A DNA stretch of 56,533 nt, taken from positions 1 to 56,533 of the forward strand of contig CACBWE010000004.1 of assembly GCA_902542855.1 (NCBI GenBank), given 5' to 3'. The notes beneath the pieces were generated by a model that did not search any database, was not told the origin of the DNA, and saw nothing but the letters and a program-made list of their open reading frames with translations. Made by a program: the position numbers and the translations under genes. The stretch's first letter is position 1, and every line of letters starts with the position of its first letter. Positions 2,568-49,184 of the stretch are shown here, in pieces. The DNA is from an uncultured Pelagibacteraceae bacterium. GTDB taxonomy: Bacteria; Pseudomonadota; Alphaproteobacteria; Pelagibacterales; Pelagibacteraceae.

Positions 2568-2568
2568 T

Positions 2569-3579
2569 ATGGATTTTGTAAATGCAATAATTCTTTTATT
2601 AAATTATATATTTATTCCTGCATTAACTTATGGTTCTCAGTTAGCATTAGGTGCAATATTTGTAACATTAATCTATGGAATTTTAAGATTTGCAAACTTT
2701 GCGACTGGTGACATGATGTCTTTTGGAACCATGATGACAATATTGTTTACATGGTATTTTCAATCTTTAGGTGTCTCTTTAGGTGTTTTACCTACTGCTT
2801 TATTGGCTATTCCATTTGGAATAATTTTCATGATTTTTTACATGCTTATAATAGATAAGTTTGTCTTTAAGTATTATAGAAATCAAAAAAGTCCCCCAGT
2901 TCAATTTGCAATGGTGAGTATTGGAGTAATGTTTGTAACACAAGCAGTGGTAAGAATTATTATTGGACCTGGTGACAGAAGATTTTTTGATGGTGAAAAA
3001 TTTATTATTAAAGCTCGTGAATTTAAGGAGATGACAGGTTTAAATGAAGGTCTTGCATTGAAATCAACTCAAGTGATAACCATTTTTGTAACAATAGTTT
3101 TAGTCTCTTTATTGTTTTGGTTTTTAAATAGAACAAAAACTGGAAAAAGTATGAAAGCTTATTCTGATAATGAAGATCTTGCTTTGTTGTCAGGTATTGA
3201 TCCAAAAAAAATAGTTTTAGTTACTTGGGTTATTGCTGGAATTTTAGCTACAATAGGCGGTGCTTTGTATGGTTTGGATAAAAGTTTTAAACCATTTACT
3301 TATTTTAATAATATGCTTCCTATTTTTGCTGCTGCAATTGTTGGAGGAATTGGAAATCCATTTGGAGCTTTTTTAGGTGGATATGTAATTGCTTTTTCTG
3401 AAATATTGCTCACTTACGCATATAAAAAATTCTTTATGTATATTTTACCAGAAAGTATGGAGCCAAGTAGTTTGGTTCAGTTATTATCCACAGATTATAA
3501 GTTTGCAGTCTCGTTTTCTATTCTTGTAATTGTTTTAATTTATCGACCTTCGGGAATATTTAAGGGGAAAGTATTGTGA
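2569..3579 (+). CDS. livH: Branched-chain amino acid/amide-type ABC transporter permease (LivH-like)
   Basis: A 336-residue hydrophobic protein with about eight predicted membrane segments. It carries the LivH hallmarks: an early GAIFVTLIYGILRFANFATGD segment and, near residue 260, AAAIVGGIGNPFGAFLGG, the cytoplasmic coupling loop that contacts the ATPases. It makes one half of the inner-membrane pore. The next gene, livM, starts with a GTG that overlaps this stop codon (GTGA, 4 bases), so translation is probably coupled. The usual LivH is about 300 residues; the extra length lies in the periplasmic/C-terminal parts. Confidence 0.9.
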   Translation: MDFVNAIILLLNYIFIPALTYGSQLALGAIFVTLIYGILRFANFATGDMMSFGTMMTILFTWYFQSLGVSLGVLPTALLAIPFGIIFMIFYMLIIDKFVFKYYRNQKSPPVQFAMVSIGVMFVTQAVVRIIIGPGDRRFFDGEKFIIKAREFKEMTGLNEGLALKSTQVITIFVTIVLVSLLFWFLNRTKTGKSMKAYSDNEDLALLSGIDPKKIVLVTWVIAGILATIGGALYGLDKSFKPFTYFNNMLPIFAAAIVGGIGNPFGAFLGGYVIAFSEILLTYAYKKFFMYILPESMEPSSLVQLLSTDYKFAVSFSILVIVLIYRPSGIFKGKVL

Positions 3580-4946
3580 GAAAAAACCTAAATGTAATTG
3601 CAGCATATAGTATCATGATGGTACTCATTCTGATGGTTGGTATATTTCAGTCTTGGAACATAGCGTTATCAATATTTAATCTTTGTTTAATTTCTGCAGT
3701 TATGACAATGGGTGCGAATATTCAATGGGGATATGCTGGTTTAATTAATTTTGGAATTATGGGCTATACAGCTTTAGGTGGTTTAGCTGCGGTATTAATA
3801 TCTGTAGATCCTGTCCAAGAAGCTTGGAGGGCTGGAGGTTTCGACATTCTAATGTCGTTGTGGCTGATAGTAGTAATGGTATTAGTTATACGCTTTGTTT
3901 TAAAAAGATTTGAAAAATCAAAAATAAGAACGTACAGCATAGCTGCAATAATAATTTCAGGTATTTTACTTATCAGATTTTCTGCAGAGCCAGGCATAGA
4001 AGCAATTGAAGCAGTAGATCCAGCTAAAACTGGTTTCTTAGGAGGATTTGGATTACCAATTATATTTTCTTGGATAGTTGGAGCACTTTTTGCTGGTAGT
4101 TTAGCTTTTATAGTTGGAAAAGTTGCGCTTGGTCTTAGAGCAGATTATTTAGCTATCGCAACACTTCTTATTTCTGAAATTGTTATTGCAATTATTAAAC
4201 ATGAAGACTGGCTCACAAGAGGAGTCAAAAATGTTATCGGCTTAAAAAGACCTGCACCTTATGAAGTAGATCTTCAAACAACTGATTGGTTTATTAAATT
4301 AGTTGAAAAGTTTAATTCAGGAAAATTAAGTGTAATTGAGAATTTAGCTGATAGACAAGCTGCTTTAAATCAACTTGTTATTGAAGGCTCTTCAGTATTT
4401 GTAAAACTGTGTTATTCAGGATTATTTTTAGTAGTAGTAATCATTCTTTTAATTTTAACTCAAAAGGCTCTTTATTCTCCATGGGGAAGAATGATGAGGG
4501 CAATTAGAGACAATGAGGAAGCTGCAAATGCAATGGGTAAAAATGTTGTTAAACAACATTTACTAATTTTTATTTTAGGCTCAGCAATTGTTGGAATTGC
4601 AGGTGCAATGCTTGTTACACAAGATGGTTTATTTACACCGGGAAGTTATAGACCTATGAGATATACTTTTTTGATTTGGGTGATGGTAATTGTTGGAGGA
4701 AGTGGAAATAATTTTGGAGCAATTTTAGGAGGATTTGTTGTTTGGTTTTTATGGATAGAAGCTGCACCAATATCATTATTCTTAATAAACTTTTTCACTG
4801 CGGGAATTCCTGAAACAAATGCACTTAAAGCTCATTTAATTGAAAGCGTTCCTTATTTCAGATTTTTACTGATGGGATTAGGATTGTTGTTTATTATGAG
4901 GTATAGACCTAAAGGTATACTTCCTGAAAAAATAGAAATAAAGTAA
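3576..4946 (+). CDS. livM: Branched-chain amino acid/amide-type ABC transporter permease (LivM-like)
   Basis: A 456-residue membrane protein with a GTG start overlapping the livH stop. LivM features include GYAGLINFGIMGYTALGG near residue 50, LGLRADYLAIATL near 190, the EAA-like loop AIRDNEEAANAMG near 305, and VGGSGNNFGAILGG near 370. It is longer than a typical LivM because of a hydrophilic stretch (residues 215-275) between membrane segments. It pairs with LivH as the pore. No binding protein follows on this strand; the nearest candidate is the LivK-like gene at 6225-7415 on the other strand. Confidence 0.9.
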   Translation: MRKNLNVIAAYSIMMVLILMVGIFQSWNIALSIFNLCLISAVMTMGANIQWGYAGLINFGIMGYTALGGLAAVLISVDPVQEAWRAGGFDILMSLWLIVVMVLVIRFVLKRFEKSKIRTYSIAAIIISGILLIRFSAEPGIEAIEAVDPAKTGFLGGFGLPIIFSWIVGALFAGSLAFIVGKVALGLRADYLAIATLLISEIVIAIIKHEDWLTRGVKNVIGLKRPAPYEVDLQTTDWFIKLVEKFNSGKLSVIENLADRQAALNQLVIEGSSVFVKLCYSGLFLVVVIILLILTQKALYSPWGRMMRAIRDNEEAANAMGKNVVKQHLLIFILGSAIVGIAGAMLVTQDGLFTPGSYRPMRYTFLIWVMVIVGGSGNNFGAILGGFVVWFLWIEAAPISLFLINFFTAGIPETNALKAHLIESVPYFRFLLMGLGLLFIMRYRPKGILPEKIEIK

Positions 4947-4951
4947 ACGTA

Positions 4952-5023
4952 ATGAAATATATTATATTAGGTGCTGCTGCTGCTTGGGCTTTGTATATGG
5001 CTGATAAGTATTTATTCTTTTAA
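4952..5023 (+). CDS. Small hydrophobic peptide, 23 residues, between livM and an MFS gene
   Basis: A short open frame beginning five bases after the livM stop and ending in TAATG, so its stop codon shares one base with the start of the MFS transporter gene. The peptide is MKYIILGAAAAWALYMADKY plus LFF, a single short hydrophobic helix with a positively charged N-terminus. The overlap matches the other coupled junctions here (livG/livF, 17652, 22853), which supports real translation. I do not recognise it. It could be a small transporter-associated peptide or simply a leader that couples translation to the MFS gene. Confidence 0.5.
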   Translation: MKYIILGAAAAWALYMADKYLFF

Positions 5024-6192
5024 TGAATAAAAATCTTTCGTTACTTATATTAAGCCAGATTTTTGCTTTTACAGCTGCCCCAGTCACCGTTTTTTTAAGT
5101 GGTATAATTGGTTCAAAATTTAGTCCAATAAATACTTTAGCAACTCTTCCAATGGCTTTGTCAGTAGTCGGAATTGCGTTATTTGCATTTTTTGCTGCAA
5201 AGTTAATGAGTATAATTGGACGGAAATTGGGATTCATTTACGCATCAGTAGGTACATGTTTTGCATCTCTTTTAACTGCATACTCTATAATTATAGAAAG
5301 TTTTGTCTTATATAATTTAGGATGCTTTTTAATTGGTGGAGGAATAGCTTTTAGCCATCAATATCGTTTTGCAGCAGTCGAGGTTGTGGATAAGGATTAT
5401 GCACCAAAAGCAATTTCTATCATTTTGTTAGCAGGAATAGGTTCGGCCTTTATTGGTCCAAACATTGCAAACATTTCAAAAGAATTAATTTCAGATCATA
5501 TGTATGCAGGTTCTTATCTTACACTTGCCATTTTATCTATCTCATCAACAATATTTTTAATTTTTTATCAGGAACCAAAAACGATATCTAGTAATCAATA
5601 TAAAACAGGAAGAAGTTTTTTTGAGCTTATCTCACAACCTAGATTTCTACAGGCACTGATAGCTTCAGCTTTTGCGTATGCAGTAATGACTTTTTTAATG
5701 ACAGCAACTCCCATAAGTATGCATTTGATGGATAAAATAAGTTTATCCAAGACTGGATTTGTTATTCAGCTTCATATAGCAGCCATGTTTTTACCTTCAT
5801 TAATTACTGGAAATTTAATTAAAAGGTTTGGTCATAGTAAAATTATGCATATGGGAGTTTTATTATTTTTAATCACAATAATTACTAGTTTGTTTGAACA
5901 AAATTTTATTAATTATATGATTGCTCTTATTTTTCTAGGGCTAGGATGGAATTTTTTATTTATATCAGGAACAAGTTTACTTGTTTTGTGTTATAGAGAA
6001 GAGGAGAAATATAGAGCTCAAGGGTATAATGATTTAATTGTTTATTCTATACAAGCAGCAGCGAGTTTGTCTGCTGGGGTGTTTCTAAGCTTAACTAGCT
6101 GGAAAACTATGAATTTAATTTGTTTGATTTTTCTAATTATCATAGCTCTATCTACCATAAGAGCTGACTTAAAAAAAAACCCCAGTAATTAA
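5023..6192 (+). CDS. Major facilitator superfamily transporter
   Basis: A 389-residue protein with about twelve hydrophobic segments and an MFS loop between segments 2 and 3 (KLMSIIGRKLGF, near residues 60-71), the counterpart of the G-x3-D-R-x-GR motif but lacking the aspartate. A second copy of the motif appears after the central loop (GNLIKRFGHSK, near residue 265), as expected for the two six-helix halves. Substrate unknown. It starts in the stop codon of the 23-residue peptide. Its stop codon lies inside a terminator hairpin, so this gene ends the livGFHM transcription unit. Confidence 0.8.
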   Translation: MNKNLSLLILSQIFAFTAAPVTVFLSGIIGSKFSPINTLATLPMALSVVGIALFAFFAAKLMSIIGRKLGFIYASVGTCFASLLTAYSIIIESFVLYNLGCFLIGGGIAFSHQYRFAAVEVVDKDYAPKAISIILLAGIGSAFIGPNIANISKELISDHMYAGSYLTLAILSISSTIFLIFYQEPKTISSNQYKTGRSFFELISQPRFLQALIASAFAYAVMTFLMTATPISMHLMDKISLSKTGFVIQLHIAAMFLPSLITGNLIKRFGHSKIMHMGVLLFLITIITSLFEQNFINYMIALIFLGLGWNFLFISGTSLLVLCYREEEKYRAQGYNDLIVYSIQAAASLSAGVFLSLTSWKTMNLICLIFLIIIALSTIRADLKKNPSN

Positions 6193-6224: not shown

Positions 6225-7415
6225 TTATCTTTGTTTTTTTGTTTTGAATTTTCCACCTTTAATTTCTTGTTCTAAGAAAGAACCTTCAGCTTCACCAACG
6301 CTAGTAAAAGTTACTCCAGTTGCACCTTCGTAATTAATCTTTTTACCTTTTGCTAGTAAGTCTAAACCTTTCTTAAGTTCACCTGGATAAATTTTAGTTC
6401 CAGGAGCATTAGCAACATCCATTACATTTTTTGCAATTGATGCTCTGTCAGCAGAGTTACCTGCTTGCATTGCAAGAACGATTAAAGCAGCTGCATCGTA
6501 AGATTCACCTGTGTAAGGACCAGAAGCTTCTACACCTCCAGCTTTTGCAACTTCAGCAAATATACCTGCACCTTTACCAGTAGAACCTGGTAATGATCCA
6601 AATGATTTGCTTAAATCTTTTCCGAATGCATCAACTAAAGATTGACCAATCATACCATCTGATAAAATAAATCTATCAAACGCACCAGAGTCTAAAGAAG
6701 CTTGAATAATTCCTTTTCCTCCTTGGTCAAGATAGCCAATAACTGCTACAGCATCACCACCAGCAGAAGCAAGAGTTGCTACTTCAGATGAGTAATCTGC
6801 TTTTCCATCTTCGTGAGCAGTTACAGTTGTAACTTTAATACCATGAGCTTCAACTGCCGCTTTGTAAACATCAGCTAAACCTTTACCATAGTCATTGTTA
6901 GTATAAGTGATTGCAACACTTTTTACTTTTCTGTCTTTAGTTATATCAGCTAAAATTTGACCACCTCTAGCATCTGATGGAGCAGTTCTAAAGAAATACC
7001 CTTTGTCGTCTAGAGTTGTTAATCCTGGAGAAGTAGCTGAAGGTGAAATCATTACTACACCATTTGGTACAGCAACGTTAGTTGCAATAGCACCAGTTAC
7101 ACCTGAACAGTCTGCTCCCATAATTGCAGCTACACCACCTGAAATTAAACCTTCAGCTGCAGCTGTTGCCGCTGCTGAGTCAACACAAGTTGAGTCTGCT
7201 CTTACTGGCTCAATTTTTTTTCCACCTAATAGTGAACCTGAATCAGATGCTTCTTTAAATGCAAGCTCTGCAGATGCAGCCATAGCTGGAGTTAGAGATT
7301 CAATAGGACCAGTGAATCCTAAGATTATCCCCATTTTAATCGAATGTCCGTCTGCCATTACATTTGAACCAAAACTTGATACAAATATAAATACAGCGAT
7401 AAATAGTTTTCTCAT
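6225..7415 (-). CDS. livK: ABC transporter periplasmic substrate-binding protein (LivK/HAAT family)
   Basis: A 396-residue type I periplasmic binding protein. Residues 1-21 form a signal peptide ending VMA, with cleavage likely before DGHSIKMG. The mature protein begins with the family motif ILGFTGPIESLTP, then shows ADSTCVDSAAATAAAEGLI and GADCSGVTGAIA, which fit the first ligand-binding lobe. Two cysteines (in STCVDS and ADCSG) could form the disulphide common in this family. It is convergent with livGFHM-MFS and shares their terminator, so it has its own promoter between 7416 and 7525; a purine-rich AGAGGAAG Shine-Dalgarno precedes the ATG. Separate transcription would allow the high binding-protein excess seen with such importers. 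Confidence 0.9.
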   Translation of the reverse strand: MRKLFIAVFIFVSSFGSNVMADGHSIKMGIILGFTGPIESLTPAMAASAELAFKEASDSGSLLGGKKIEPVRADSTCVDSAAATAAAEGLISGGVAAIMGADCSGVTGAIATNVAVPNGVVMISPSATSPGLTTLDDKGYFFRTAPSDARGGQILADITKDRKVKSVAITYTNNDYGKGLADVYKAAVEAHGIKVTTVTAHEDGKADYSSEVATLASAGGDAVAVIGYLDQGGKGIIQASLDSGAFDRFILSDGMIGQSLVDAFGKDLSKSFGSLPGSTGKGAGIFAEVAKAGGVEASGPYTGESYDAAALIVLAMQAGNSADRASIAKNVMDVANAPGTKIYPGELKKGLDLLAKGKKINYEGATGVTFTSVGEAEGSFLEQEIKGGKFKTKKQR

Positions 7416-7463
7416 TATCTTCCTCTATATTGTTAACAATTTATAAAAGACCAATTTAAGTAT

Positions 7464-7480
7464 GAATATTGTTAATATTC
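7464..7480. promoter_or_regulatory. Short dyad GAATATT-N3-AATATTC upstream of livK
   Basis: A 7-bp perfect inverted repeat separated by GTT lies about 50 bases upstream of the livK start, in the only non-coding space between livK and the aldehyde dehydrogenase gene. It may be an operator, but AT-rich dyads of this size can arise by chance and no recognised regulator is in the window. Confidence 0.25.
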
Positions 7481-7525
7481 AATGACAAAATTATCCTATT
7501 TTAGACAGTTAATTGACGCTGAAAA

Positions 7526-9007
7526 TTACCTGATTGAGAAGGGGTCTAAAGAAGGTTCATCAGATGTATAGAACCAAGTTGTTTTTACTCTTGTATAGTC
7601 TTTAATCGAGTCAATTCCTGCTTCTTTTCCATATCCACTATCTTTAATGCCTCCAAATGGTGCAGATGGTGAAATTAATCGATAAGTGTTAACAAAAGTT
7701 ATTCCTGCCCTAATTGCTTTCGAAACTCTCATGCCTCTAGATAAATTGCTTGTATAAACTCCAGAAGATAATCCATATTGATTATCATTCATTTTAGAAA
7801 TTACTTCTTCTTCAGTATCAAATTTCATAACCGATAATACAGGTCCAAATAATTCGTTTTCTGCTACAGGCAGATTATGATTGTCACATTCAATAATTGT
7901 TGGGGGAAAGTAATACCCTTTATTTGAGAAAGAATGTCTTTCACCTCCACACTTAATTTTTCCACCTTGATCAATTGTCTCTTTAATATTTTTTTCTATT
8001 ACCTCTAATTGTTTAAAATTACTTAAAGGACCCATCTCTGTTTCTGGATCCATTGGTGCTCCAATTTTTATTTTTGATGCACGATTTGAAAGCTTATTTA
8101 AAAATTCATCGTAAATTCCTTTTTGCAAATAAAGTCTTGATCCTGCTATACAACTTTGTCCACTTGCACCAAATATACCTGCAGTAATTCCATTTATTGC
8201 ATTTTCTTGGTCTGCATCATCAAAGACTGCAACTGGACTTTTTCCACCTAATTCTAAGCTTACTTCTGATAAATTTTCTGCTGAGTTTTTAATTATATGT
8301 CTTGCTGTTTCAGGACCACCAGTAAAAGCAACTTTTTCAATTAAGTTATGAGTAGTTAAACTTTTACCACAAGGATCTCCAAATCCTGTAATTACATTCA
8401 CCACACCTTTAGGGATGCCAGTTTTTTCAACTAATTTTGCAAATTCAAACAAAACAGCAGGTGCAAGTTCTGAAGATTTAATTACCACTGTATTACCCAT
8501 TGCAAGTGCTGGTGCTACTTTAGTTGCGGTTAAAAACATTTGTGAATTCCATGGAATGATTGCAGCTATAACTCCTATAGGTATTCTTGTTGTTATTGCT
8601 TGAACATTTGGCTTATCGATTGGCAAAACCGTACCTTCAACTTTATCTGCCAAGCCAGCATAATAGTCGTAGTATTCTGCTATATAAACTGCTTGTTTTT
8701 TTGTTTCTCTGTAAAGTTTTCCAGTATCAATTGTTTCTATTTCTCCTAGCATTTCTGCATTCTCTCTCAATTGATTTCCAATAGCTCTTAAATATTTAGC
8801 TCTTTCTCTGGGAAGTAGTTTTGGCCATTCACCTTCGAATGCTTTTTGAGCAGCTTTTACTGCATTATCAACATCTTTAGCATTTGCTTCTGGAACAACT
8901 GCCCATGGTTCATTATGTTCTGGATTTAGAGTTTCAAATGTTCTTTTACTTTCAGAGTCAACCCACTCTCCATTAATAAACATTTTATATTGTTTAAGTT
9001 TACTCAT
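7526..9007 (-). CDS. NAD(P)-dependent aldehyde dehydrogenase (operon-terminal)
   Basis: An aldehyde dehydrogenase of 493 residues from the ATG at 9007. An upstream TTG at 9016 is also in frame, but ATG inside the preceding gene's end (ATGAGTAA) is the better start. Catalytic elements in order: PWN near residue 152-154 (Asn of the oxyanion hole), VIKSSELAP (cofactor Lys), FTGG, LELGGKSP (general-base Glu near 252) and GQSCIAGSRL (nucleophilic Cys near 286). It oxidises an aldehyde to an acid in the cytoplasm. As the last gene of the flavin oxidoreductase/ThDP enzyme operon it probably oxidises the aldehyde made by the ThDP decarboxylase. It belongs to a different subgroup from the paralogous pair at 18787 and 33249. 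Confidence 0.92.
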   Translation of the reverse strand: MSKLKQYKMFINGEWVDSESKRTFETLNPEHNEPWAVVPEANAKDVDNAVKAAQKAFEGEWPKLLPRERAKYLRAIGNQLRENAEMLGEIETIDTGKLYRETKKQAVYIAEYYDYYAGLADKVEGTVLPIDKPNVQAITTRIPIGVIAAIIPWNSQMFLTATKVAPALAMGNTVVIKSSELAPAVLFEFAKLVEKTGIPKGVVNVITGFGDPCGKSLTTHNLIEKVAFTGGPETARHIIKNSAENLSEVSLELGGKSPVAVFDDADQENAINGITAGIFGASGQSCIAGSRLYLQKGIYDEFLNKLSNRASKIKIGAPMDPETEMGPLSNFKQLEVIEKNIKETIDQGGKIKCGGERHSFSNKGYYFPPTIIECDNHNLPVAENELFGPVLSVMKFDTEEEVISKMNDNQYGLSSGVYTSNLSRGMRVSKAIRAGITFVNTYRLISPSAPFGGIKDSGYGKEAGIDSIKDYTRVKTTWFYTSDEPSLDPFSIR

Positions 9008-9785
9008 CTGATCCAATAAAATTTTCGATAGTTAAATTTACATCATCAGCACACTCAATACCACAAAGATGTTTTCCATCTTTAATGATCTTTAATTGAC
9101 TTTTAGAAATTAAAGCATTCAATTCTTGAGACATTTTTACAGTTGAGCCAATATCGTATTCACCTGTCACAACTAGCGTATTAGCTTTAATTTTATTAAA
9201 ATCTTCATCATTTTTATGATAAACGAATAGCTTGTAAACCTTTAGAAAATTATTCATGTTATTTGCAGATAAAATTGAACTTATTTTTTCATATATTTCT
9301 GGATTATTTTCTAAATATTTATCAGTAAACCACCTCTTTAAAGCTTGCTTTGAAAGTTTTAAATCTTGTTTTACCTGTTCAAACCTTTGATTAACAATTT
9401 TTTGTTGTTCTTCAGTTCTTTTATAAATAGAACACAAAAGAGTTAATGTCTGTAAACGTTCATTATGTTTAATTGCAAAATTTCGTGCAATTAAAGACCC
9501 TATAGAGAAACCTACAAGATGTATTTTTTTTATTTTAAGATGGTTCAAAAGCTCGATAAGTTGTTTAGAAAAATCATCAAAACTTATTTCACCTTCTTCT
9601 AATGGTGATCTTCCATGACCTAAAATGTCGTAAGCAATATTTGAATGATAATTAAAAAATTCAAGTTGAGGTTGCCAAATTTCATGAGTTAAACCAACAC
9701 CATGCACAAATACTATTGGGACTTCTTGATCTTTTTTATTGAATAAGTAATAGGTTCCTGAGGCAGTAGTTCCTGTAATCATCAA
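9000..9785 (-). CDS. Alpha/beta-fold hydrolase
   Basis: A 261-residue alpha/beta hydrolase. The oxyanion motif HGVGLTHEIW is at residues 29-38, DILGHGRS near 53-60, and the nucleophile elbow GFSIG at 92-96 (Ser94). The probable acid Asp is in VVTGEYDIGS and the His in DGKHLCGIE near the C-terminus, so the triad looks complete. The family resembles 3-oxoadipate enol-lactonase and RutD-type hydrolases, which cleave lactones, esters or carbamates. Its 3' end overlaps the aldehyde dehydrogenase by 8 bases and it begins 3 bases after the AA_synth gene, so it is fully embedded in the operon. The substrate is unknown. Confidence 0.85.
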   Translation of the reverse strand: MMITGTTASGTYYLFNKKDQEVPIVFVHGVGLTHEIWQPQLEFFNYHSNIAYDILGHGRSPLEEGEISFDDFSKQLIELLNHLKIKKIHLVGFSIGSLIARNFAIKHNERLQTLTLLCSIYKRTEEQQKIVNQRFEQVKQDLKLSKQALKRWFTDKYLENNPEIYEKISSILSANNMNNFLKVYKLFVYHKNDEDFNKIKANTLVVTGEYDIGSTVKMSQELNALISKSQLKIIKDGKHLCGIECADDVNLTIENFIGSDE

Positions 9786-9788
9786 GAA

Positions 9789-10376
9789 TTATTTTGGCTC
9801 AATGCCCATTTCTTTCATATCTTGATATCTGTCACCAGTTCTTGCATGTGCTCTACCACTTGATGCCCCACCAATTGCAATAACCACCTCGTCATCGAAG
9901 GGTGCATCATGAATAGTAAATTCATGAGTTAGGTAATATGGTCTCAATCCAGAGTCTGTTTTATGCATCATAGGAATTGCAATCTTTGATCCAGCTGGTC
10001 CTCTTGTGTTTGTAAAACTTAAATATGAAGTTCCACCCACCGCATCTCTAAATTTATTTCCAAACCTTAAAGTATGAATAAAAGCTGAAGCATGTTCTAT
10101 TTCACCGTTCAGTCCAACTACACCTGCCTTACCATATGCTAATATTTTTTCAGGTGATCCTATTTCTTTTATCAATTCTGGAACAAGTAAATCTCCTAGC
10201 TTTGGTGCAAGATCTAAAATAGTTGTTCTGAGATTTTCAACAAAACCCTGACCATGCCATGGATTTTTAAAAACTGCTGCTACTGATACCATTAAAACTG
10301 GTTCTTTCGCTTCTTTACCACCTTCAATAAAAGTTTTGTCTACAAATTTTGTAAATTTTCTTAATTCTAATTTCAT
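9789..10376 (-). CDS. AA_synth (DUF1185) family protein
   Basis: A 195-residue soluble protein that I assign to the AA_synth family (PF06684, formerly DUF1185). Features are the start LELRKFTKFVDKTFIEGG, the block VAAVFKNPWHGQGFVE (residues 33-48), EHASAFIHTLRFGNKFRDAVGG in the middle, and AIGGASSGRAHARTGDRY near the C-terminus. The family has solved structures, but I know of no firmly established reaction. It shares ATGA with the ThDP enzyme gene upstream (10373-10376), so it is translationally coupled. Conserved His and Arg residues in the last block suggest a catalytic or ligand-binding site. In this operon it may process the product or substrate of the ThDP enzyme. Confidence 0.75.
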   Translation of the reverse strand: MKLELRKFTKFVDKTFIEGGKEAKEPVLMVSVAAVFKNPWHGQGFVENLRTTILDLAPKLGDLLVPELIKEIGSPEKILAYGKAGVVGLNGEIEHASAFIHTLRFGNKFRDAVGGTSYLSFTNTRGPAGSKIAIPMMHKTDSGLRPYYLTHEFTIHDAPFDDEVVIAIGGASSGRAHARTGDRYQDMKEMGIEPK

Positions 10377-12076
10377 TTTTTTACTCTATGTTTGAAACTA
10401 TCTCTTCTAAAACTGTATAATGCTTTTGGATCTACATCAACATCAATCACAGATGGCTTATTTGATTTAATTGCTGCTCTTACAGCTTCACAAATCTCAG
10501 AAATTTTTTTAACTTTAAAACCTTTTGCACCATAAAGTTCCGCAACTTTATCAAAGGATGGACTGGTAATATCCGCACCTAAATATCTTTTTCCAAAAAA
10601 ATCTTTTTGATAAGCTTTTTCAGCACCCCAACTTTTATTGTTCATCACAATAGTTGTAGTATTAATTCTATATTCAACAGCAGTGCTCAATTCAGATATT
10701 GTCATGCCAAAACCCCCATCACCCATAAGACTAACGACTGTTTTTTTAGGTTTTGCAACTTTGACTCCAAGACCACATGCAAATGAAAAACCAACTAAAC
10801 CAAAATCCAATGGAGTAAATAATGAAGGAGGATCATAATATTCTAAAGCATCTGTAGCCTGCAAACATAACGTTCCAGCATCTAGAGTAATTGCTGAGTT
10901 TCTTGGTAGCACTTTTCTTAATTGTTTAAATAGTCCTTTTGGTTGTATAGGAAAATTTGGACCCAAATTTTCTTTATTTCTATTTATCAAATATTCTTTT
11001 CTCTCTTGTAAATAAGAGTTAGTCCAATCTTTAACATTTAATTTAATTTTCTCTTTTTTAACCTCTTCGTAAAGTTGTTTAGTTGCAGTCGCAGCATCCG
11101 CATGTATCTTTACTTTTACAGGAAAATATTTTCCAAGCATTGTTTTTTCTAGTTCAATTTGAATTATCTTTGCTTTTTTATTTATATTTTCATAGGAGTA
11201 AAAAGTTGAATTAAATCCTAAACGTGTTCCAATTGCTAAAATGACATCTGCATTTTTAACTAATCTTGATGCTACAGGATTTCCTCTAGGACCCATTTGT
11301 CCTGCATTTAATTTATGACCAAAAGGAATTGCATCTCCATGACCCGCTGCTGTAACAATAGGTAGGTTGCATAGTTCAGCTAGCTTTATTACCTCTTTGT
11401 ATTTAGAATTATACTTAATTCCTGCTCCAACAATAATTACCGAACATTTTGAAGATCCGATTAATTTTGCAGCTTTTTTGATATTTTCCTCATTTCCTTT
11501 TTGTTTGCTTACATTTATGAACGATGGTTTTTTAGTATTGATATTATAATTGTTTGAAGCTGCTAATATATTTCTTGGTAAATTTACACAAACAGGTCCT
11601 TTTCTAGGTTTCATTGCCAAACTAAAAGCATCACTCATAATTTTTGGAATTATTTTTGAATTTTTTATAGTCCAAGTTTTTTTTGTAATAGGTGTAAACA
11701 TAGACTGTTGATCTAAACCCTGAAATGCATCTTCCATTTTATCTTTAGTTGAATAAGAACCTGCAATTGCAACAACTGGAGAAAAGGCTGCTTTTGCTTG
11801 AGCGACCCCTGTAACTAAATTAGTAGCACCAGGTCCGTTTTGGCCTGCAATAATTACCCCAGGTTTATTTGAGGCTCTTGCATAACCATCAGCCATATGT
11901 GTGCCAGTTCTTTCATCTCTGACACCAATAAATTTTATACTTTTCTCATGATAAAGAGCATCAAACATTTCCATTGTAGCTGAACCAATAAGTCCAAAAA
12001 CATGTTTTACTCTTTCTTTTTTTAATGATTGAACAGCAGCTTGTCCGCCGCTAATTCTTTTTCGTTTTTTATTCAC
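10373..12076 (-). CDS. Thiamine-diphosphate-dependent enzyme (acetolactate synthase/2-oxoacid decarboxylase family)
   Basis: A 567-residue ThDP enzyme with a GTG start that overlaps the preceding stop (GTGA). The N-terminal pyrimidine-binding domain has the catalytic glutamate at E55 in GVRDERTGTHMADGYAR. The central domain spans roughly 195-335. The C-terminal ThDP-binding motif starts MGDGGFGM at 451-458 and ends NN at 479-480. The length suits acetolactate synthase, benzoylformate decarboxylase or glyoxylate carboligase relatives. It is not the housekeeping IlvB, because no small subunit IlvN accompanies it. Its neighbours (flavin oxidoreductase upstream, aldehyde dehydrogenase downstream) favour a decarboxylase producing an aldehyde. 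That role is inferred. Confidence 0.85.
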   Translation of the reverse strand: MNKKRKRISGGQAAVQSLKKERVKHVFGLIGSATMEMFDALYHEKSIKFIGVRDERTGTHMADGYARASNKPGVIIAGQNGPGATNLVTGVAQAKAAFSPVVAIAGSYSTKDKMEDAFQGLDQQSMFTPITKKTWTIKNSKIIPKIMSDAFSLAMKPRKGPVCVNLPRNILAASNNYNINTKKPSFINVSKQKGNEENIKKAAKLIGSSKCSVIIVGAGIKYNSKYKEVIKLAELCNLPIVTAAGHGDAIPFGHKLNAGQMGPRGNPVASRLVKNADVILAIGTRLGFNSTFYSYENINKKAKIIQIELEKTMLGKYFPVKVKIHADAATATKQLYEEVKKEKIKLNVKDWTNSYLQERKEYLINRNKENLGPNFPIQPKGLFKQLRKVLPRNSAITLDAGTLCLQATDALEYYDPPSLFTPLDFGLVGFSFACGLGVKVAKPKKTVVSLMGDGGFGMTISELSTAVEYRINTTTIVMNNKSWGAEKAYQKDFFGKRYLGADITSPSFDKVAELYGAKGFKVKKISEICEAVRAAIKSNKPSVIDVDVDPKALYSFRRDSFKHRVKK

Positions 12077-13242
12077 GAAACTTTTTTTACTTCGGTATCG
12101 AAATCATCTTGGAAGTGAGGCATAACTTTTTCTGTAAAGAGTTTTATACTTTTCATACAATCTTTATGCTTCACACCTGGAAAATTAGACCAAACTTGTA
12201 AATTTTGTAAATTGAGTTCAGATTTTAATTCATGAATTTTATCAATCACATATTCTGGTGTTCCAAATAACATATTTCTTTTATGTAAAAATTCATAATT
12301 TAATAAATCCAATTTACCTTTTGTCTCTGGTAATTCTTCACCTGGATCCATATGATTTCCTAAACCTCTCCAATGACAAACCCATCTCATATAATTTACC
12401 ATATGTTCACCAGCTTTCTCTTTTGCTTCTTCCATCGTATCTGCAACGAACATATCTCTTACAAGAGACACCCCTTCTCCAAGGGGTATATTTTTCTTTG
12501 TTACTTCTGATCTTTTGTTTTTATAAGCTTCAAACTTTGGCTTCAAAGCTTTTACTGTTGGTATCCACATGATAACATTGATATTATTTTCAGCAGCCCA
12601 CTCAATCGATCTAATTCCATCAACTACTTGATGAATTGGAGGATGTGGCTGTTGATATGGCTGAGGAACAACACTAATTTTTTTCATAGTACTGTCTTCC
12701 ATATTCATAAATTCTTCACTAGGAGGACTCATATCATGCTGCCAAACATAATTTGGGGATGGATAAGTATAAAATTCTCCTTGGTGACTGAAAAATTTTT
12801 CACTCCATGCTTTCTTCAATACTTCTAAAGTCTCAGCAAATAATCTAAAATTTTTAGCCTGATCTTTTAAGTCAGCTTCTTTATTTAGGTTAATTGCTTC
12901 TCTTCCATAAATTCCTCTTGCCACACCTACTTCAACTCTTCCTTTAGAAAGCTGATCTAGTGTAGCTATATCTTCAGCTAATCTTATTGGATTATGAAAA
13001 GTAATAACGTTTGCAGCTTGGCCTATTCTAATATTTTTTGTTCTTGCAGCTGCATCTGCACCCATCATTAATGGATTTGTACAAGACTCCATTCCCTCGT
13101 GATTGAAGTGATGTTCTGTAAACCAAATTGAATTCCATTTGTTTTGATCACAGTATTCTGTGATTTCTTTAGTTTCATCTAATAATTGATGATAAGGTTT
13201 GTGTGTCCAGTTTGTGGTATTACAAAAATAACCAAATTTCAT
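12073..13242 (-). CDS. LLM-class (luciferase-like) flavin-dependent oxidoreductase
   Basis: A 389-residue bacterial-luciferase-like protein. I place the start at the ATG at 13242 because an excellent Shine-Dalgarno GGAGG (13247-13251) lies 4 bases before it; the frame stays open to 13284 but that adds only a non-conserved extension. Family features are FGYFCNTTNW, SIWFTEHHFNHEG, MGADAAARTKNIRIGQAANVI, the block PIRLAEDIATLDQLS and GRVEVGVARG, which line the TIM-barrel flavin site. Members use FMNH2 or F420 to oxygenate or oxidise small molecules. No flavin reductase is present in the operon, so reduced flavin must come from elsewhere. As the first gene it probably performs the initial attack on the substrate. 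Confidence 0.88.
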   Translation of the reverse strand: MKFGYFCNTTNWTHKPYHQLLDETKEITEYCDQNKWNSIWFTEHHFNHEGMESCTNPLMMGADAAARTKNIRIGQAANVITFHNPIRLAEDIATLDQLSKGRVEVGVARGIYGREAINLNKEADLKDQAKNFRLFAETLEVLKKAWSEKFFSHQGEFYTYPSPNYVWQHDMSPPSEEFMNMEDSTMKKISVVPQPYQQPHPPIHQVVDGIRSIEWAAENNINVIMWIPTVKALKPKFEAYKNKRSEVTKKNIPLGEGVSLVRDMFVADTMEEAKEKAGEHMVNYMRWVCHWRGLGNHMDPGEELPETKGKLDLLNYEFLHKRNMLFGTPEYVIDKIHELKSELNLQNLQVWSNFPGVKHKDCMKSIKLFTEKVMPHFQDDFDTEVKKVS

Positions 13243-13347
13243 AAAGCCTCCTTTAAAAGTTAATTTAAAGACGACCGATCCCACTTTCGTAAATCTATGA
13301 ATTTATCGACGAGTTATGTATCGCTTTATAATTAAACTTTATTATTA
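13243..13347 (-). promoter_or_regulatory. Leader/promoter region of the flavin oxidoreductase operon
   Basis: This 105-base stretch is the only non-coding DNA upstream of the five-gene minus-strand operon (7526-13242), so the promoter should be here. The strong GGAGG ribosome-binding site at 13247-13251 is unusual in this window, where most genes lack an obvious one. I could not choose convincing -35/-10 boxes by eye. Confidence 0.4.
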
Positions 13348-14316
13348 CTAACGTTGATATTCAATAAATTTCTTTAAGGATTTATTAAGAAATTTCTCAT
13401 AAATTTGACCATTATTTTTGAATTTACCTCCATTTAAAAAAGATTGGTTCATTTTGAAATCATAGGAAGGTTCAAAAAAAAAAGGAACAGATAGTCTCTT
13501 ACTTTTATTCCACAACACCCTGTGATTAGTTGCTTTAAATTTACCTTTACTTAGAAACTCTAATGCTCTTCCTGTATTTACTACTAAAGCTTTTTTGTTG
13601 AATGGCACATCATACCATTTTTTGTTTTTTCTATTTTGCACTTGTAATCCACCTTTTCTATCTTGATAGAGAACTGTAAATATTCCACTATCAACATGTG
13701 TTTCACATCCAAGCGCTACTCCATCTTGTTTTGATATTTCTACTGGTTTAGTTTGATTTGGGTAATAATTAAATCTTAATGTGCTTAAAGTTTTTAATCT
13801 TGAAAAAGCTACAGTAGAAATCTCAGGATTTTTTTTATTAAGTTTTATTAAACTTTTAAACAATATTTCACTCAATCTATAAATGTTATCAAAATATTTT
13901 TTTAGAATTTTAATTGAGCTTTTATTAAAACACATGCCTAGATTAATAAACTCTATGTATTGATTTTTGAGATTTGAGGAATATTTTTTAGTTACTTTTA
14001 AATCACCTATATCAAGACCTTCTTTTCCATTAACATCATTAGGAAAATATCCTCTGTATAAATTTTTATTTTTTTTATTCCATTTTTTAGGTGCTAATCT
14101 TCTTTTCGTGCTGTCTGGTAAATTAAAAAATTTATTAGCAACTTCACATGTTTTTTTTATTTCTTTCTGATTAATTCCATGTCCAGTAATTTGAAAAAAT
14201 CCTACATCAACACAAGCTTTTTCAATTTCTTTAATTGTTTTAAATGCATTTTGATTTTCAAAATTATTTTCAATTAATGACGATATGTTTATTTTTGGTA
14301 TAAAATTCTTGTTCAT
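13348..14316 (-). CDS. 2-oxoglutarate/Fe(II) dioxygenase, isopenicillin-N-synthase-like
   Basis: A 322-residue non-haem iron oxygenase. The N-terminal DIOX_N part includes the block CVDVGFFQITGHGI (residues 35-48). The iron triad is H207 and D209 (THVDSG) and H265 (ATNHRV). The 2-oxoglutarate-binding R-x-S is R274-x-S276 (KRLSVPFFFEP). All key residues are present, so it should be active. Relatives hydroxylate, desaturate or cyclise small molecules; the substrate is not evident. It is the last gene of a unit starting with ProV, the thioesterase and an EamA transporter, and it overlaps the EamA stop codon (ATGA, 14313-14316). Confidence 0.85.
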   Translation of the reverse strand: MNKNFIPKINISSLIENNFENQNAFKTIKEIEKACVDVGFFQITGHGINQKEIKKTCEVANKFFNLPDSTKRRLAPKKWNKKNKNLYRGYFPNDVNGKEGLDIGDLKVTKKYSSNLKNQYIEFINLGMCFNKSSIKILKKYFDNIYRLSEILFKSLIKLNKKNPEISTVAFSRLKTLSTLRFNYYPNQTKPVEISKQDGVALGCETHVDSGIFTVLYQDRKGGLQVQNRKNKKWYDVPFNKKALVVNTGRALEFLSKGKFKATNHRVLWNKSKRLSVPFFFEPSYDFKMNQSFLNGGKFKNNGQIYEKFLNKSLKKFIEYQR

Positions 14317-15266
14317 CTTCTAACCGGTGTTTCTGTTGCAATATATTGATCTCTAACTCTCTCCCTCATATAAATATAAATTCCAGCTGCTATAATACAT
14401 GCAACACCAACAAATGTTCTGGTAGTTGGTACTTCATTAAATAAAAAGTATCCAGGTATCATAGACATAATTATTAATGAGTACTCAAACAAAGAAACAA
14501 CAGATGGTGATGCAACTATATATGCTGAAAAAATACAAACAAAAGCTATTGATGCAGCAAAACCAAAAAATAAAATAAATTTCCATGTATATTCAATATT
14601 TGAAAACCATTCTCTAAAGATGAATTGTATTGTTGGATCAAAGTTTGTATTATTTAGCTGACCACTTCCCATAAAAAAATACAAAATTACACACAGCAAT
14701 ATTGCAATTAGATAAAAGTAATAAAGTTGGGTGTTAACATCATCTTTATCGGATGTATATTTAGTGATTGTCATAGAGGCAGCATAACAAAATGCACAAA
14801 AAACTGGTAAAAGACTTCGATATTCAAAGTCTGAAAAATTTGGATTTAAGACTATAAAAACGCCAATAAAACCAAAAACAATTGCTGACCACCTTCTAAT
14901 ACCAATAGTTTCTTTTAAAAATAACTTTGCAAATATTGATACGAAAAAAGGGGAGGAAAAAAATAGAGCATTTGCTGTTGCTAGAGGCATAAAAGTTAAT
15001 GAGATAAAAAACGCTGAAAAAGCAATAAAATGTAAAACCACTCTTAATATTGTTAAAAAAGGATAGTGAGTTTTAAGAGAGACTTTTTGTTTACTTAATT
15101 TTATATAACCAAAAAGCAGAATTGCTGCAACAAAATATCTTCCAAAAAATATTTCATATAAAGCTGCTTTTTCAAAAATAAATTTAATTAAAGCATCCTG
15201 CATTGCAAAAAATGTCATTGCAGTAATTATTAGAAGTATACCTTTTGAATTATTATTAGCGCTCAT
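14313..15266 (-). CDS. EamA/DMT-family transporter (first of two)
   Basis: A 317-residue membrane protein with about ten hydrophobic segments arranged as two EamA repeats. The second repeat starts near residue 165. The first carries the typical segment PLATANALFFSSPFFVSIFAKLFLKE (residues 83-108), the second the PSVVSLFEYSLIIMSMIPGYFLFNE counterpart. These drug/metabolite exporters move small polar solutes such as amino acids across the inner membrane. It is translationally coupled to the downstream dioxygenase gene, so the two may handle the same compound. Confidence 0.82.
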   Translation of the reverse strand: MSANNNSKGILLIITAMTFFAMQDALIKFIFEKAALYEIFFGRYFVAAILLFGYIKLSKQKVSLKTHYPFLTILRVVLHFIAFSAFFISLTFMPLATANALFFSSPFFVSIFAKLFLKETIGIRRWSAIVFGFIGVFIVLNPNFSDFEYRSLLPVFCAFCYAASMTITKYTSDKDDVNTQLYYFYLIAILLCVILYFFMGSGQLNNTNFDPTIQFIFREWFSNIEYTWKFILFFGFAASIAFVCIFSAYIVASPSVVSLFEYSLIIMSMIPGYFLFNEVPTTRTFVGVACIIAAGIYIYMRERVRDQYIATETPVRR

Positions 15267-15306
15267 TATGCACCTATATCAAAAAAAAATTGTATAGAAT
15301 ATTTAA

Positions 15307-15768
15307 TTATTTCTTTAATTTAGAAGAAAATAGAAGAGCTTCGTTTGAAAATTTTGACTTATTTTCTTCAATAAAATCTTTCATTAATTTTACTTTTTCT
15401 TCTTCAAATTCAGTGACTTTCCTTTTGCTTAAATCTATATATAGCGATATCCACTCCATAGATGCTGAAAGTTTGTTAGTTTTTTGAGAAATCATTTCCA
15501 TTTTTAAATGTAATCTTTTTTTATCATGATCAAAATAAGTTAGATTAACATCAACCATTTCTCCCTCTTTTATCTCATTTAAATATTTAGTATTAGTTTC
15601 AACAACCATTGTGCTTCTATGTAAATCTTTTGCTGCTGTTCCACCCATTTTAAATTTTTCAAGAGCAACCTCCCATGCTTGATCAAAAACAAGTACATAA
15701 TAAGCCATGTTCATATGATTGTTGTAATCAACCCATTCCTTTTTTACTTCGAAAGTTTTTAATAACAC
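15307..15768 (-). CDS. Hot-dog-fold acyl-CoA thioesterase (4HBT/YbgC-like)
   Basis: A 153-residue single hot-dog domain. The block EWVDYNNHMNMAYYVLVFDQAWE (residues 11-33) matches the 4-hydroxybenzoyl-CoA thioesterase consensus VxxxDxDxxGHVNNxxY, with D14 as the likely catalytic acid. The length is normal for the family. Its ATG is one base after the stop of the ProV gene, so they form one operon. In carnitine degradation of pseudomonads a betainyl-CoA thioesterase (CdhB) belongs to the same fold. Beside a betaine-type ATPase and a butyrobetaine-hydroxylase-like gene a similar role is possible, but this is inference. Confidence 0.75.
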   Translation of the reverse strand: MLLKTFEVKKEWVDYNNHMNMAYYVLVFDQAWEVALEKFKMGGTAAKDLHRSTMVVETNTKYLNEIKEGEMVDVNLTYFDHDKKRLHLKMEMISQKTNKLSASMEWISLYIDLSKRKVTEFEEEKVKLMKDFIEENKSKFSNEALLFSSKLKK

Positions 15769-15769
15769 T

Positions 15770-16795
15770 TTATGATCTTGTTAATGAAGACTGTAATTCT
15801 TGATTTGAAATGTATCCCTTTACATTTCCACTTTTATCAACCACTTCACAGTTTGAATCAGAACAGACAATTTTTGGTAAAAAATCTTCTATAAATTCAT
15901 CTTCATTTACTTTTATTAAGTTTGATTTATCTATGTCATTAGCTTGATCAGCAGTTTTCATAATAATCTTTGCCTTGATAACTTTTGCTCTGTTCACATC
16001 TTTTACAAAAGCTTTTACATAATCATCAGCAGGGTTCATAATAATTTCCTCTGGGGTTCCAACTTGAACTAATTTTCCAGAATTTAATATCCCGATGTGG
16101 TCTCCCAATCTTAATGACTCATCCAAATCATGTGTAATAAATACAATAGTTTTTTTTAGTTCTGCTTGAAGATCAATCAATTGTTTTTGCATATCACTTC
16201 TAATCAGAGGATCTAGAGCGCTGAAAGCTTCATCCATTAACATTATGTCTGTATCTGTCGCTAATGCTCTTGCTAAACCAACACGTTGCTGCATTCCTCC
16301 TGATAACTGAGCAGGGTATTGATTTTCAAAACCAGTTAGACCAACTGCATCAATTTTTTCCATTGAGATTTTGTTTCTTTCATCCTCAGTTTTTCCTTGC
16401 ATTTCTAGTCCGTAACCAACATTTTGAATTACTGTTTTATGCGGGAATAAACCAAATCTTTGAAACACCATGCTCATTTTATGTCTTCTAAATTCAATAA
16501 GTTTATCTTTATCAAGTGACATTACATTCGTGCCCTCAACTAAAATTTCACCATCAGTTGGATCAATTAGTCTATTTAAATGTCTTATTAGTGTTGATTT
16601 TCCTGATCCTGATAAACCCATACAAACAAAGGTTTCTCCTTCTTCAATTTTAAGAGAAACATTATCTAATCCAACGGTATGACCAGTTTGCTCTAAAATT
16701 TCGTCTTTCGTTGCACCATCTTTTACCATTGGCAGCACAGAAGAAGGGTTGTTTCCAAAAATTTTGTATACGTTGTTGATCTCAATTTTTGACAT
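15770..16795 (-). CDS. proV: Glycine betaine/quaternary-amine ABC transporter ATP-binding protein (ProV/OpuAA-like)
   Basis: A 341-residue ATPase of the quaternary amine uptake family. The ProV-specific N-terminal extension (ILEQTGHTVGLDNVSL, residues 33-48) precedes Walker A GLSGSGKST at 60-68. The signature is LSGGMQQ at 164-170, with the methionine typical of this family, and Walker B is IMLMDEAFSALDP. The C-terminal 70 residues form a single degenerate CBS-like region, whereas E. coli ProV has a tandem pair and is about 400 residues. No ProW permease or ProX binding protein is in the window, so it must pair with products encoded elsewhere or outside the edges. Confidence 0.88.
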   Translation of the reverse strand: MSKIEINNVYKIFGNNPSSVLPMVKDGATKDEILEQTGHTVGLDNVSLKIEEGETFVCMGLSGSGKSTLIRHLNRLIDPTDGEILVEGTNVMSLDKDKLIEFRRHKMSMVFQRFGLFPHKTVIQNVGYGLEMQGKTEDERNKISMEKIDAVGLTGFENQYPAQLSGGMQQRVGLARALATDTDIMLMDEAFSALDPLIRSDMQKQLIDLQAELKKTIVFITHDLDESLRLGDHIGILNSGKLVQVGTPEEIIMNPADDYVKAFVKDVNRAKVIKAKIIMKTADQANDIDKSNLIKVNEDEFIEDFLPKIVCSDSNCEVVDKSGNVKGYISNQELQSSLTRS

Positions 16796-17652: not shown

Positions 17653-18803
17653 TGGAGCAAAATTTTACAATAACAAATATAACTAAAAATTCTACAAATT
17701 TAGAAGTTGACTGGAGCGATGGAAAAAAAAGTAAATTTAATTATTTGTGGCTAAGAGACAATTGTCCAACTGCACATGACAAAGACTCACGTCATAGAAT
17801 GTTTAATATTTTAAAAGTATCAAACAAAATTAATCCAAAAAAATTTGCAGTAAATAATGAAGGCAAGCTTGAAATTGAATGGAGCGAAGGTGACCATATA
17901 AGTTATTATGACCAAAATTGGTTAAGAGAAAACTGCTATACTATAAAAAATAATTTAGAATATAAATCTCCATATCAACTTTGGGACAACTCTTTACAAA
18001 ATGACCTGAAGTCAATTGAGATTGAACATGATGAAATTATAAGTTCATATAAGGGACTTGTCAGATGGTTAGAGCTCTTACACCACACTGGAATTGCTAT
18101 AGTAAAAAATGCTCCAACTGAAAATAATTCTGGCTTTAAAATTTTAAACAGAATTAGCCATACTAGAGAAACTTTTTTTAAAACACCTTTTGAAGTAATT
18201 AATATTCCTAAACCAAATAATTCTGCTTACACAGCGCATGCTTTAAGAAATCATATGGATTTACCATGGTTTGAAACACCACCGGGATATCAATTTCTTC
18301 ATTGTTTAGTAAATTCTGTAACTGGAGGAGACTCATCCGCCGTAGATGGCTTTGCAGTTGCAGATTATTTAAGAAAAAATGAGAAAGAAATATTTGATAC
18401 GCTAGTAAACGTTCATTTAAAATTTAGAGACATGGATTATACTCAAGAGTCTGTTAGAAGTTATTACGCACCCGCGATATCTCTAACAAAAGATAATGAT
18501 TATCATGATATTCGGTTTAGCGTAGCAACTATGGATGCTTTAGACTGTCATCCTGATTTGATGGATAAAGTTTACAAAGCTCATCATCGATTTGGAAATT
18601 TACTCCATGACGATCAATTCCAGATTAAATTTAGATTAGGACCAGGTGATATTTTTTCTTTTAACAATAGACGATTATTACACGGCAGAACTGAATATGA
18701 TCCAAACTCAGGACATAGACATTTACAAGGTTATTATATGGATCGAGATGAAATTATTGGGAGACTAAGATATTTAAAAAATTCTGTTAACTCCAACCAG
18801 TAA
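17652..18803 (+). CDS. Gamma-butyrobetaine/trimethyllysine hydroxylase-like dioxygenase
   Basis: A 383-residue protein with the two-domain layout of gamma-butyrobetaine hydroxylase (BBOX) and trimethyllysine hydroxylase. The N-terminal DUF971-like domain contains LWLRDNCPTAHDKDSRHR (residues 32-49). The C-terminal TauD-type domain has the iron ligands H201 and D203 (RNHMDLPW), H344 (RRLLHGRTEY) and the 2-oxoglutarate arginine R356 (GHRHLQGYY). All key residues are intact. BBOX hydroxylates gamma-butyrobetaine to carnitine using Fe(II), O2 and 2-oxoglutarate. In the N-terminal domain H48 and C38 are present but a full zinc site is not obvious. The 3' end overlaps the convergent aldehyde dehydrogenase by 17 bases. 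Confidence 0.82.
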   Translation: MEQNFTITNITKNSTNLEVDWSDGKKSKFNYLWLRDNCPTAHDKDSRHRMFNILKVSNKINPKKFAVNNEGKLEIEWSEGDHISYYDQNWLRENCYTIKNNLEYKSPYQLWDNSLQNDLKSIEIEHDEIISSYKGLVRWLELLHHTGIAIVKNAPTENNSGFKILNRISHTRETFFKTPFEVINIPKPNNSAYTAHALRNHMDLPWFETPPGYQFLHCLVNSVTGGDSSAVDGFAVADYLRKNEKEIFDTLVNVHLKFRDMDYTQESVRSYYAPAISLTKDNDYHDIRFSVATMDALDCHPDLMDKVYKAHHRFGNLLHDDQFQIKFRLGPGDIFSFNNRRLLHGRTEYDPNSGHRHLQGYYMDRDEIIGRLRYLKNSVNSNQ

Positions 18804-47248: not shown

Positions 47249-47265
47249 TACTAAGGCTACCACAA

Positions 47266-47418: not shown

Positions 47419-47428
47419 TTAAATCATT

Positions 47429-47458: not shown

Positions 47459-47468
47459 AAATTTTATT

Positions 47469-47699: not shown

Positions 47700-47710
47700 A
47701 TTTTTCTCCT

Positions 47711-49111: not shown

Positions 49112-49184
49112 ATTCTCTCTCCATATTTGTTTATTTAAACCCTATTAAATTTTATGAGTCCTTACAAATATAAAGAGAGTAAAA

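Follow-up and report, generated by a model that had tools for sequence, protein, structure and literature searches.

Five genes on the minus strand of contig CACBWE010000004.1 (positions 7526–13242; assembly GCA_902542855.1, from an uncultured Pelagibacteraceae bacterium) probably form an operon for the catabolism of small nitrogen-ring compounds, in essence the trigonelline (tgn) kit with another oxygenase and an added step dependent on thiamine diphosphate (ThDP). We put the probability of this reading at roughly 0.65. The window, as the term is used here, is the whole stretch of 56,533 nucleotides that was analysed. The operon begins with a luciferase-like, flavin-dependent monooxygenase (LLM; 12073–13242; PF00296, E = 9.7e-44), the proposed ring-opening oxygenase, followed by a ThDP-dependent enzyme of the acetolactate synthase/Xsc-like superfamily, a putative accessory to the kit (10373–12076; PF02775/02776/00205; GTG start). 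Next come an AA_synth (DUF1185) protein of a TgnF-like subfamily (9789–10376; PF06684, E = 2.6e-63) with the motif HTLxFGN, an alpha/beta hydrolase resembling PcaD and TgnD (9000–9785; PF00561, E = 6.4e-23; TTG start) with its serine in GFSIGS, and a TgnC-like aldehyde dehydrogenase (ALDH; 7526–9007; PF00171) with conserved Cys and Glu motifs.

An earlier sequence-only reading of the window had named these five families, their 4- and 8-base overlaps and 3-base gap, and a GGAGG site ahead of the operon, and each of these points agrees with our analysis. The LLM and ThDP genes overlap by 4 bases, as do the ThDP and AA_synth genes; AA_synth and the hydrolase are 3 bases apart; the hydrolase and ALDH genes overlap by 8 bases if the ALDH, whose open reading frame (ORF) is open up to 9016, starts at the ATG at 9007. 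The ribosome-binding site (13247–13251, minus strand) lies 4 bases before the LLM ATG at 13242. The reported absence of a local flavin reductase and of IlvN also held, neither being found among the ten ORFs scanned in 6225–16795. Promoter and terminator scans gave no usable signal (30 promoter-like sites against 51.7 expected). The prediction of a catabolic operon is supported, and the arrangement, without a local flavin reductase, is conserved in kin.

The kit shared with tgn-type operons

In a search of plasmid records, tgn-type operons have the order AA_synth, alpha/beta hydrolase, flavin reductase, LLM and ALDH, annotated with an adjacent GntR regulator in Shinella, Chimaeribacter, Leisingera and pSymA of S. 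medicae and recovered by ORF matching in Azospirillum, A. baumannii and Paraburkholderia caribensis. This gene set matches TgnA–F of trigonelline catabolism family by family, the tgn names resting on family match and literature and not on A. baylyi sequences. The tgn pathway converts trigonelline to methylamine, formate and succinic semialdehyde, and a succinate-semialdehyde dehydrogenase (SSADH) gene lies near the tgn-type operon in S. medicae (annotated) and A. baumannii (ORF match). A type II order (flavin reductase, ALDH, LLM and hydrolase, plus an AA_synth gene in divergent orientation) occurs in Mesorhizobium and R. leguminosarum. The A. baumannii record (NZ_CP077849.1, 3.66 Mb) that holds a tgn-type operon is labelled a plasmid and is probably a chromosome.

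Compared with the tgn operons of A. baumannii (L127) and S. medicae pSymA (L123), the window operon shares a TgnF-subfamily AA_synth, a TgnC-like ALDH, a hydrolase, an LLM and tight packing, as well as, with S. medicae, a transporter nearby. It differs in that its LLM comes from another deep clade, in its additional ThDP enzyme, and in having no flavin reductase in the cluster and no regulator among the scanned neighbours. The window AA_synth is 55–59% identical to the AA_synth proteins of tgn-type operons. The operon ALDH is 50–52% identical to type I tgn ALDHs, 40% to those of type II and 35% to the SSADH of S. medicae, and it scores below the curated SSADH cut-offs; judged by its sequence, it is TgnC-like. 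A second ALDH in the window (18787–20217) reaches only 32–34% to the type I enzymes. The Ser, Asp and His positions of the hydrolase could be aligned, and the protein belongs to the same family as the tgn-type hydrolases, though at only 23–31% identity.

A census of AA_synth proteins ties this subfamily to the kit. PF06684 was found in 82 of 385 evenly drawn alphaproteobacterial genomes (129 matches), from which 60 loci in 52 genomes were hand-picked for spread over genera and read with at most 7 kb of flank per side, several contigs being shorter than that; two genomes read before (G271 and G286) were omitted, and one (G363) was read later for its ThDP gene. The motif HTLxFG[NE] splits the 60 proteins in two. 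The 15 that bear it share 56–86% identity with whichever AA_synth is closest among those of tgn-type operons, G271 and the window, compared with 34–46% for the 45 that do not. Near the motif-bearing genes we found a hydrolase in 12 cases, an ALDH in 8, an LLM in 8 and a flavin reductase in 6, with all four in 5; near the 45 motif-less genes there was no hydrolase, no ALDH, one LLM and one flavin reductase. The other subfamily (34–46%) is present as two tandem genes in 12 of the 60 loci (L195, L197–L200, L203, L207–L210, L228 and L243), where no kit gene was seen.

Two structures of PF06684 proteins have been solved (PMC2954203), and a passage of PMC7913881 describes TgnF as a homologue of the DUF1185 protein HcdD, adding that the effect reported for TgnF was not seen with HcdD. 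The suggestion that the window operon gives AA_synth its first functional setting is therefore not supported, given this homology and the seven tgn-type operon records. Because tgn-type operons carry AA_synth together with a hydrolase, flavin reductase, LLM and ALDH, the family already had a setting in ring cleavage.

The oxygenase and the ThDP enzyme

The window LLM belongs, as far as its sequence and our trees tell, to another deep clade and is not of TgnA type. Its relatives at 43–54% identity lie in genomes G271 (54%), G182 and G286. The G271 cluster (L161), from another alphaproteobacterium, places a window-type LLM beside an AA_synth (61%), a hydrolase, an ALDH and a flavin reductase (40% to the tgn type), adjoined by what appear from sequence to be a Rieske-like protein and a LysR-like regulator; unlike the window, it has no ThDP gene in the stretch read. 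G286 has two window-type LLMs near ALDH, AA_synth and hydrolase genes. In the other 13 of the 15 LLM stretches read, neither a kit AA_synth nor a kit ALDH was seen; two of them, L162 (G182) and L173, hold hydrolase-like ORFs. Among plasmid-borne LLMs, the best scores came from Peribacillus (34%) and Sulfitobacter (30%). No AA_synth is annotated near either; other neighbours include an ALDH in Peribacillus and a hydrolase and flavin reductase from an aromatic-compound cluster in Sulfitobacter.

In the first of two trees, a long, fully supported branch separates the tgn-type from the window-type LLMs. This tree held 49 of 127 LLMs after thinning by identity; in the second, the long rows L173_1 and L234_0 were left out, and L265 and L267 were relabelled as kit-linked for the approximately unbiased (AU) test. 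The best tree that forces all kit-linked LLMs into one clade was rejected (33 rows against 14; p-AU = 6.3e-6). An AlphaFold model of the LLM, built with 19 close relatives, reached a mean predicted local distance difference test score (pLDDT) of 45.8 and was not used.

The best NCBIfam matches of the ThDP enzyme are two Xsc models, as a sulfonate route would have it, in which an SsuD-like LLM releases sulfite and an Xsc-like enzyme handles sulfoacetaldehyde. However, these matches (407 and 390.6 bits) fall far short of the 620 and 676.4 bits required, and an acetolactate synthase model does almost as well. For the LLM, the alkanesulfonate monooxygenase model yields 30.9 bits where 518.2 are needed, and AA_synth, hydrolase and ALDH point to tgn. 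We consider this route very improbable. An identity as the acetolactate synthase large subunit was likewise rejected (389.1 bits against 538.35), as was RutA, the oxygenase of the pyrimidine (Rut) pathway (19.6 against 498.3).

Relatives of the window ThDP enzyme at 58–62% identity were found in six other genomes among the 385. The sequence-only reading had proposed looking for the five families together elsewhere, and they do recur in another lineage: the alphaproteobacterial cluster of G370 (L254) has the order ALDH, LLM, AA_synth, hydrolase and ThDP enzyme (61% to the window), with a regulator that looks LysR-like in sequence. G273 carries ALDH, LLM, hydrolase and ThDP genes with its AA_synth elsewhere in the genome; G363 carries flavin reductase, ALDH, AA_synth, hydrolase and ThDP genes with no LLM seen; and G236 carries ALDH, LLM and ThDP genes, no AA_synth being found in the PF06684 search of its genome. 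Since the LLMs of G370, G273 and G236 fall on the tgn side of the tree, the ThDP enzyme pairs with both oxygenase lineages.

The window-type ThDP proteins form one clade against the type of R. pomeroyi (support 100/100). The ThDP genes of the two families of the window's order were joined in the second tree (77/88) and not in the first; the first tree held 29 of 91 proteins after thinning by identity and the second 20 rows, with the very long L131 left out. L163 and L229 have ThDP-like ORFs close to kit genes, but these belong to other ThDP families (22–23% to the window enzyme). The nearest ThDP proteins on plasmids, from R. pomeroyi (39.5%) and Ruegeria sp. (39.6%), lie in a cluster of MttB-like, aminotransferase and FAD-oxidoreductase genes without the kit. 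On the R. pomeroyi megaplasmid (L129, 1354–10674), the ThDP gene stands at the end of this cluster, which also encodes an MttB-like methyltransferase, a class III aminotransferase and two FAD oxidoreductases.

How the ThDP enzyme fits into the order of steps is less straightforward. The sequence-only reading had laid out a linear route, in which oxidation by the LLM and cleavage by the hydrolase are followed by ThDP-dependent decarboxylation of a 2-oxo acid, giving an aldehyde for the ALDH to oxidise. The family classes allow such a route, and ThDP and ALDH genes are neighbours in four other genomes, in three of them with a hydrolase. It is doubtful, however, that the ThDP enzyme makes the aldehyde used by the ALDH. 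Eight loci of close kin lack the ThDP gene yet keep ALDH, hydrolase, LLM and AA_synth, as do tgn-type operons, so this aldehyde need not come from the ThDP enzyme; moreover, the closest kin of the ALDH are TgnC-like enzymes, which act on a product of ring opening. We therefore regard the linear route as improbable and keep to the ring-catabolism reading, with the ThDP enzyme as an addition to the kit.

Close kin and flanking genes

Conservation was followed in 98 loci of the order (18 loci plus the best 80 of 502). These are close kin, with some genomes entered twice, and therefore speak for conservation and not for separate events. AA_synth is 94–99% identical in the 80, which are assigned to Pelagibacteraceae or Pelagibacterales, one being BACL5, and its TgnF-subfamily motif is kept in all 98. 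LLM and ThDP genes occur together in 81 of the 98 loci and the LLM without ThDP in 8; in the remaining 9 no LLM is in view (2 with ThDP and 7 without), and several of those 7 end at contig edges. Gene order is kept with few exceptions. Counting same-strand pairs at most 200 bases apart, the 4-base overlaps of LLM/ThDP and ThDP/AA_synth are kept in 75 of 80 and 64 of 69 pairs, respectively, and the 3-base gap between AA_synth and hydrolase in 65 of 97. The operon closes up where the ThDP gene is missing: in seven of eight such loci, the LLM stop and the AA_synth start overlap by 1 base. After thinning, four rows without ThDP remained from the genus, and these form one clade in the LLM tree (100/97). 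L022 has an additional gene between ThDP and AA_synth. On the short contig of L098, AA_synth and the LLM/ThDP pair are on opposite strands, through rearrangement or an assembly fault. Whole-genome searches, in which many genomes are incomplete, found AA_synth in 14 and the LLM in 13 of 37 genomes from the genus; in the sister family, with 24 genomes, the counts were 5 and 6.

Judging from these kin loci and from the NCBI placement of HIMB59 in the same family, the window genome, one of a genus whose small genomes measure 0.5–1.3 Mb, is probably of the HIMB59/AEGEAN-169 type. HIMB59/AEGEAN169 bacteria have been argued to fall outside SAR11 (PMC11366302).

Directly downstream of the operon lies a gene for a LIV-type periplasmic binding protein, the candidate substrate importer (6225–7415, minus strand; PF13458), and genes read from their translations as LivG-, LivF-, LivH- and LivM-like ABC transporter components occupy 1072–4946 on the plus strand. 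A LIV-type binding protein and LIVM permease follow the operon in 65 of the 76 loci with enough flank, and LivG/F/H/M-like genes are often beside it in kin. A pyrroline-5-carboxylate reductase-like gene (299–1066; PF03807, PF14748) adjoins the transporter and is kept there in many kin loci. Upstream is a 2-oxoglutarate (2OG)-Fe(II) oxygenase gene (13348–14316, minus strand; PF03171/PF14226) that tracks the ThDP gene: among 80 loci, both are present in 71 and neither in 6, with the ThDP gene alone in 3 and the oxygenase alone in none. In L103, the region upstream of the operon (1165–5993) encodes, as judged from sequence, Rieske-like, VOC-like, cupin-like and glutamine-synthetase-like proteins.

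Farther along the window, 45923–55756 looks like an N-methylglutamate (methylamine) pathway region, with a GmaS-type ligase, an ammonium transporter, a glutamate-synthase-like trio, a second glutamine-synthetase-like gene and an FAD (DAO) oxidoreductase. The type III glutamate-ammonia ligase (45923–47263, minus strand; TIGR03105, 620 bits against a cut-off of 469.6) is a possible methylamine sink, and we read the trio of Glu_synthase, GXGXG and GATase proteins (49658–52856, minus strand; PF01645, PF01493, PF13522) as N-methylglutamate synthase (Mgs)-like. These genes fit methylamine use, although other methylated amines explain them too.

Proposed route, candidate substrates and meaning

In the proposed route, the LIV-type ABC transporter would import a zwitterionic pyridine-type compound. 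With O2 and reduced flavin from a reductase encoded elsewhere, the LLM would open the ring, by analogy with the tgn pathway, to an N-acyl enamine bearing an aldehyde, which the ALDH would oxidise to the acid, as its family and TgnC-like kinship suggest. The hydrolase would then cut the N-acyl enamide into an amine, formate and a keto acid, AA_synth may assist the dehydrogenase or hydrolase step as reported for TgnF, and the ThDP enzyme, where present, would use the 2-keto acid so formed. Should the substrate carry an N-methyl group, methylamine could pass to the GmaS/Mgs-like genes 33 kb away. Such a ThDP step may suit a carboxylate beside the ring nitrogen, as in compounds of the homarine or picolinate type, better than trigonelline, which is also less likely as the substrate because the operon has no SSADH and its LLM is not TgnA-type. 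The carboxylate of homarine adjoins the nitrogen, so the same steps would yield a 2-keto acid, a usual kind of ThDP substrate. A pyridinium betaine such as homarine is a candidate substrate.

Several observations weigh against the ring-catabolism reading. Over most of its length the window LLM shares only 24–27% identity with tgn-type LLMs, and the hydrolase shares only 23–31% with its tgn-type counterparts, so reaction and substrate may both differ from tgn; the operon has a single ALDH and no SSADH. The coupling of subfamily and kit is imperfect as well: the motif-bearing L221 (a 4.5 kb contig), L224 and L237 show no kit gene in the stretch read, the kit-linked AA_synth of L266 (outside the census) has HTVWFGN in place of the motif, and G339 and G417 have window-type ThDP genes with no kit genes in the stretch read. 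Flavin supply is a further difficulty. A PF01613 flavin reductase had no match in any of the 37 genomes searched from the genus, a complete one included (it matches in 20 of 24 genomes of the sister family), and nitroreductase and NAD_binding_1 had none in six. FMN_red (PF03358), present in four of those six, is the remaining candidate among the families searched; it occurs in many genomes with and without the operon and does not visibly track it.

GmaS was found in 17 of 21 genomes with the operon and 12 of 22 without (p = 0.10, not significant), and, among genomes at least 90% complete, in 4 of 5 and 9 of 15 (p = 0.61). The operon-negative side was a subset of the genomes known to lack the operon, 12 from the genus and 10 from the sister family, and left out G158 and G435 of a sister genus, which have neither the operon nor a GmaS over the cut-off; with these two added, the operon-less side becomes 12 of 24 (p = 0.06) and, at 90% completeness or more, 9 of 17 (p = 0.36). 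Outside the order, twelve genomes with the kit were compared: GmaS was present in 4 of 4 with the ThDP gene and 2 of 8 without (p = 0.06), or 3 of 9 without when G286, which has GmaS and no window-type ThDP gene, is added (p = 0.07). Neither set of tests is used as support.

According to PMC8269262, homarine is the most abundant compound of one marine data set, making up to 3% of particulate carbon, values that a later correction calls overstated, and action of TgnA/B on it is considered improbable on steric grounds. A homarine pathway of environmental bacteria was published in 2026 (Ferrer-Gonzalez et al.); N-methylglutamate dehydrogenase takes part in it, according to a passage of PMC13390433. 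The two systems may share a substrate class. The window operon could accordingly be the HIMB59-type form of that pathway, already described in substance; the N-methylglutamate-type genes in the window speak for this, the lack of a significant link between GmaS and the operon speaks against it, and we judge it rather unlikely. The operon of the homarine route is reportedly named homABCDER and is reported to reach SAR11.

Returning to the reading of a modified tgn kit, one extension of it seems possible though clearly short of probable, and only as a whole: that one conserved downstream kit (TgnF-like AA_synth, TgnC-like ALDH and hydrolase) is served by two unrelated LLM lineages in a mix-and-match ring opening, that in one branch a dedicated ThDP enzyme, joined in the HIMB59-type genus by the 2OG oxygenase, introduces a new 2-keto-acid step, and that a homarine-like betaine or other N-heterocycle is used by an undescribed route without a PF01613 reductase. 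No title on this operon was found among the literature matches listed, in a search that mostly left subscription papers and preprints outside. Pending comparison with the homarine pathway, three elements are new here: the exchange of the LLM, the ThDP enzyme as a partner and the distribution across HIMB59-type bacteria.

The census narrows a vaguely named "amino acid synthesis" family to a subfamily tied by its context to ring catabolism. With its new oxygenase clade and unexplained ThDP partner, the operon itself predicts the use of such a ring compound, and this prediction is directly testable. Given the different oxygenase and the extra ThDP enzyme, a related ring compound may serve these bacteria as food. 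In the surface communities of the South Pacific Gyre, AEGEAN169 (HIMB59-type) bacteria reach shares of several percent (PMC11366302). If the mix-and-match extension is true, small ocean bacteria could use a pyridinium betaine such as homarine.

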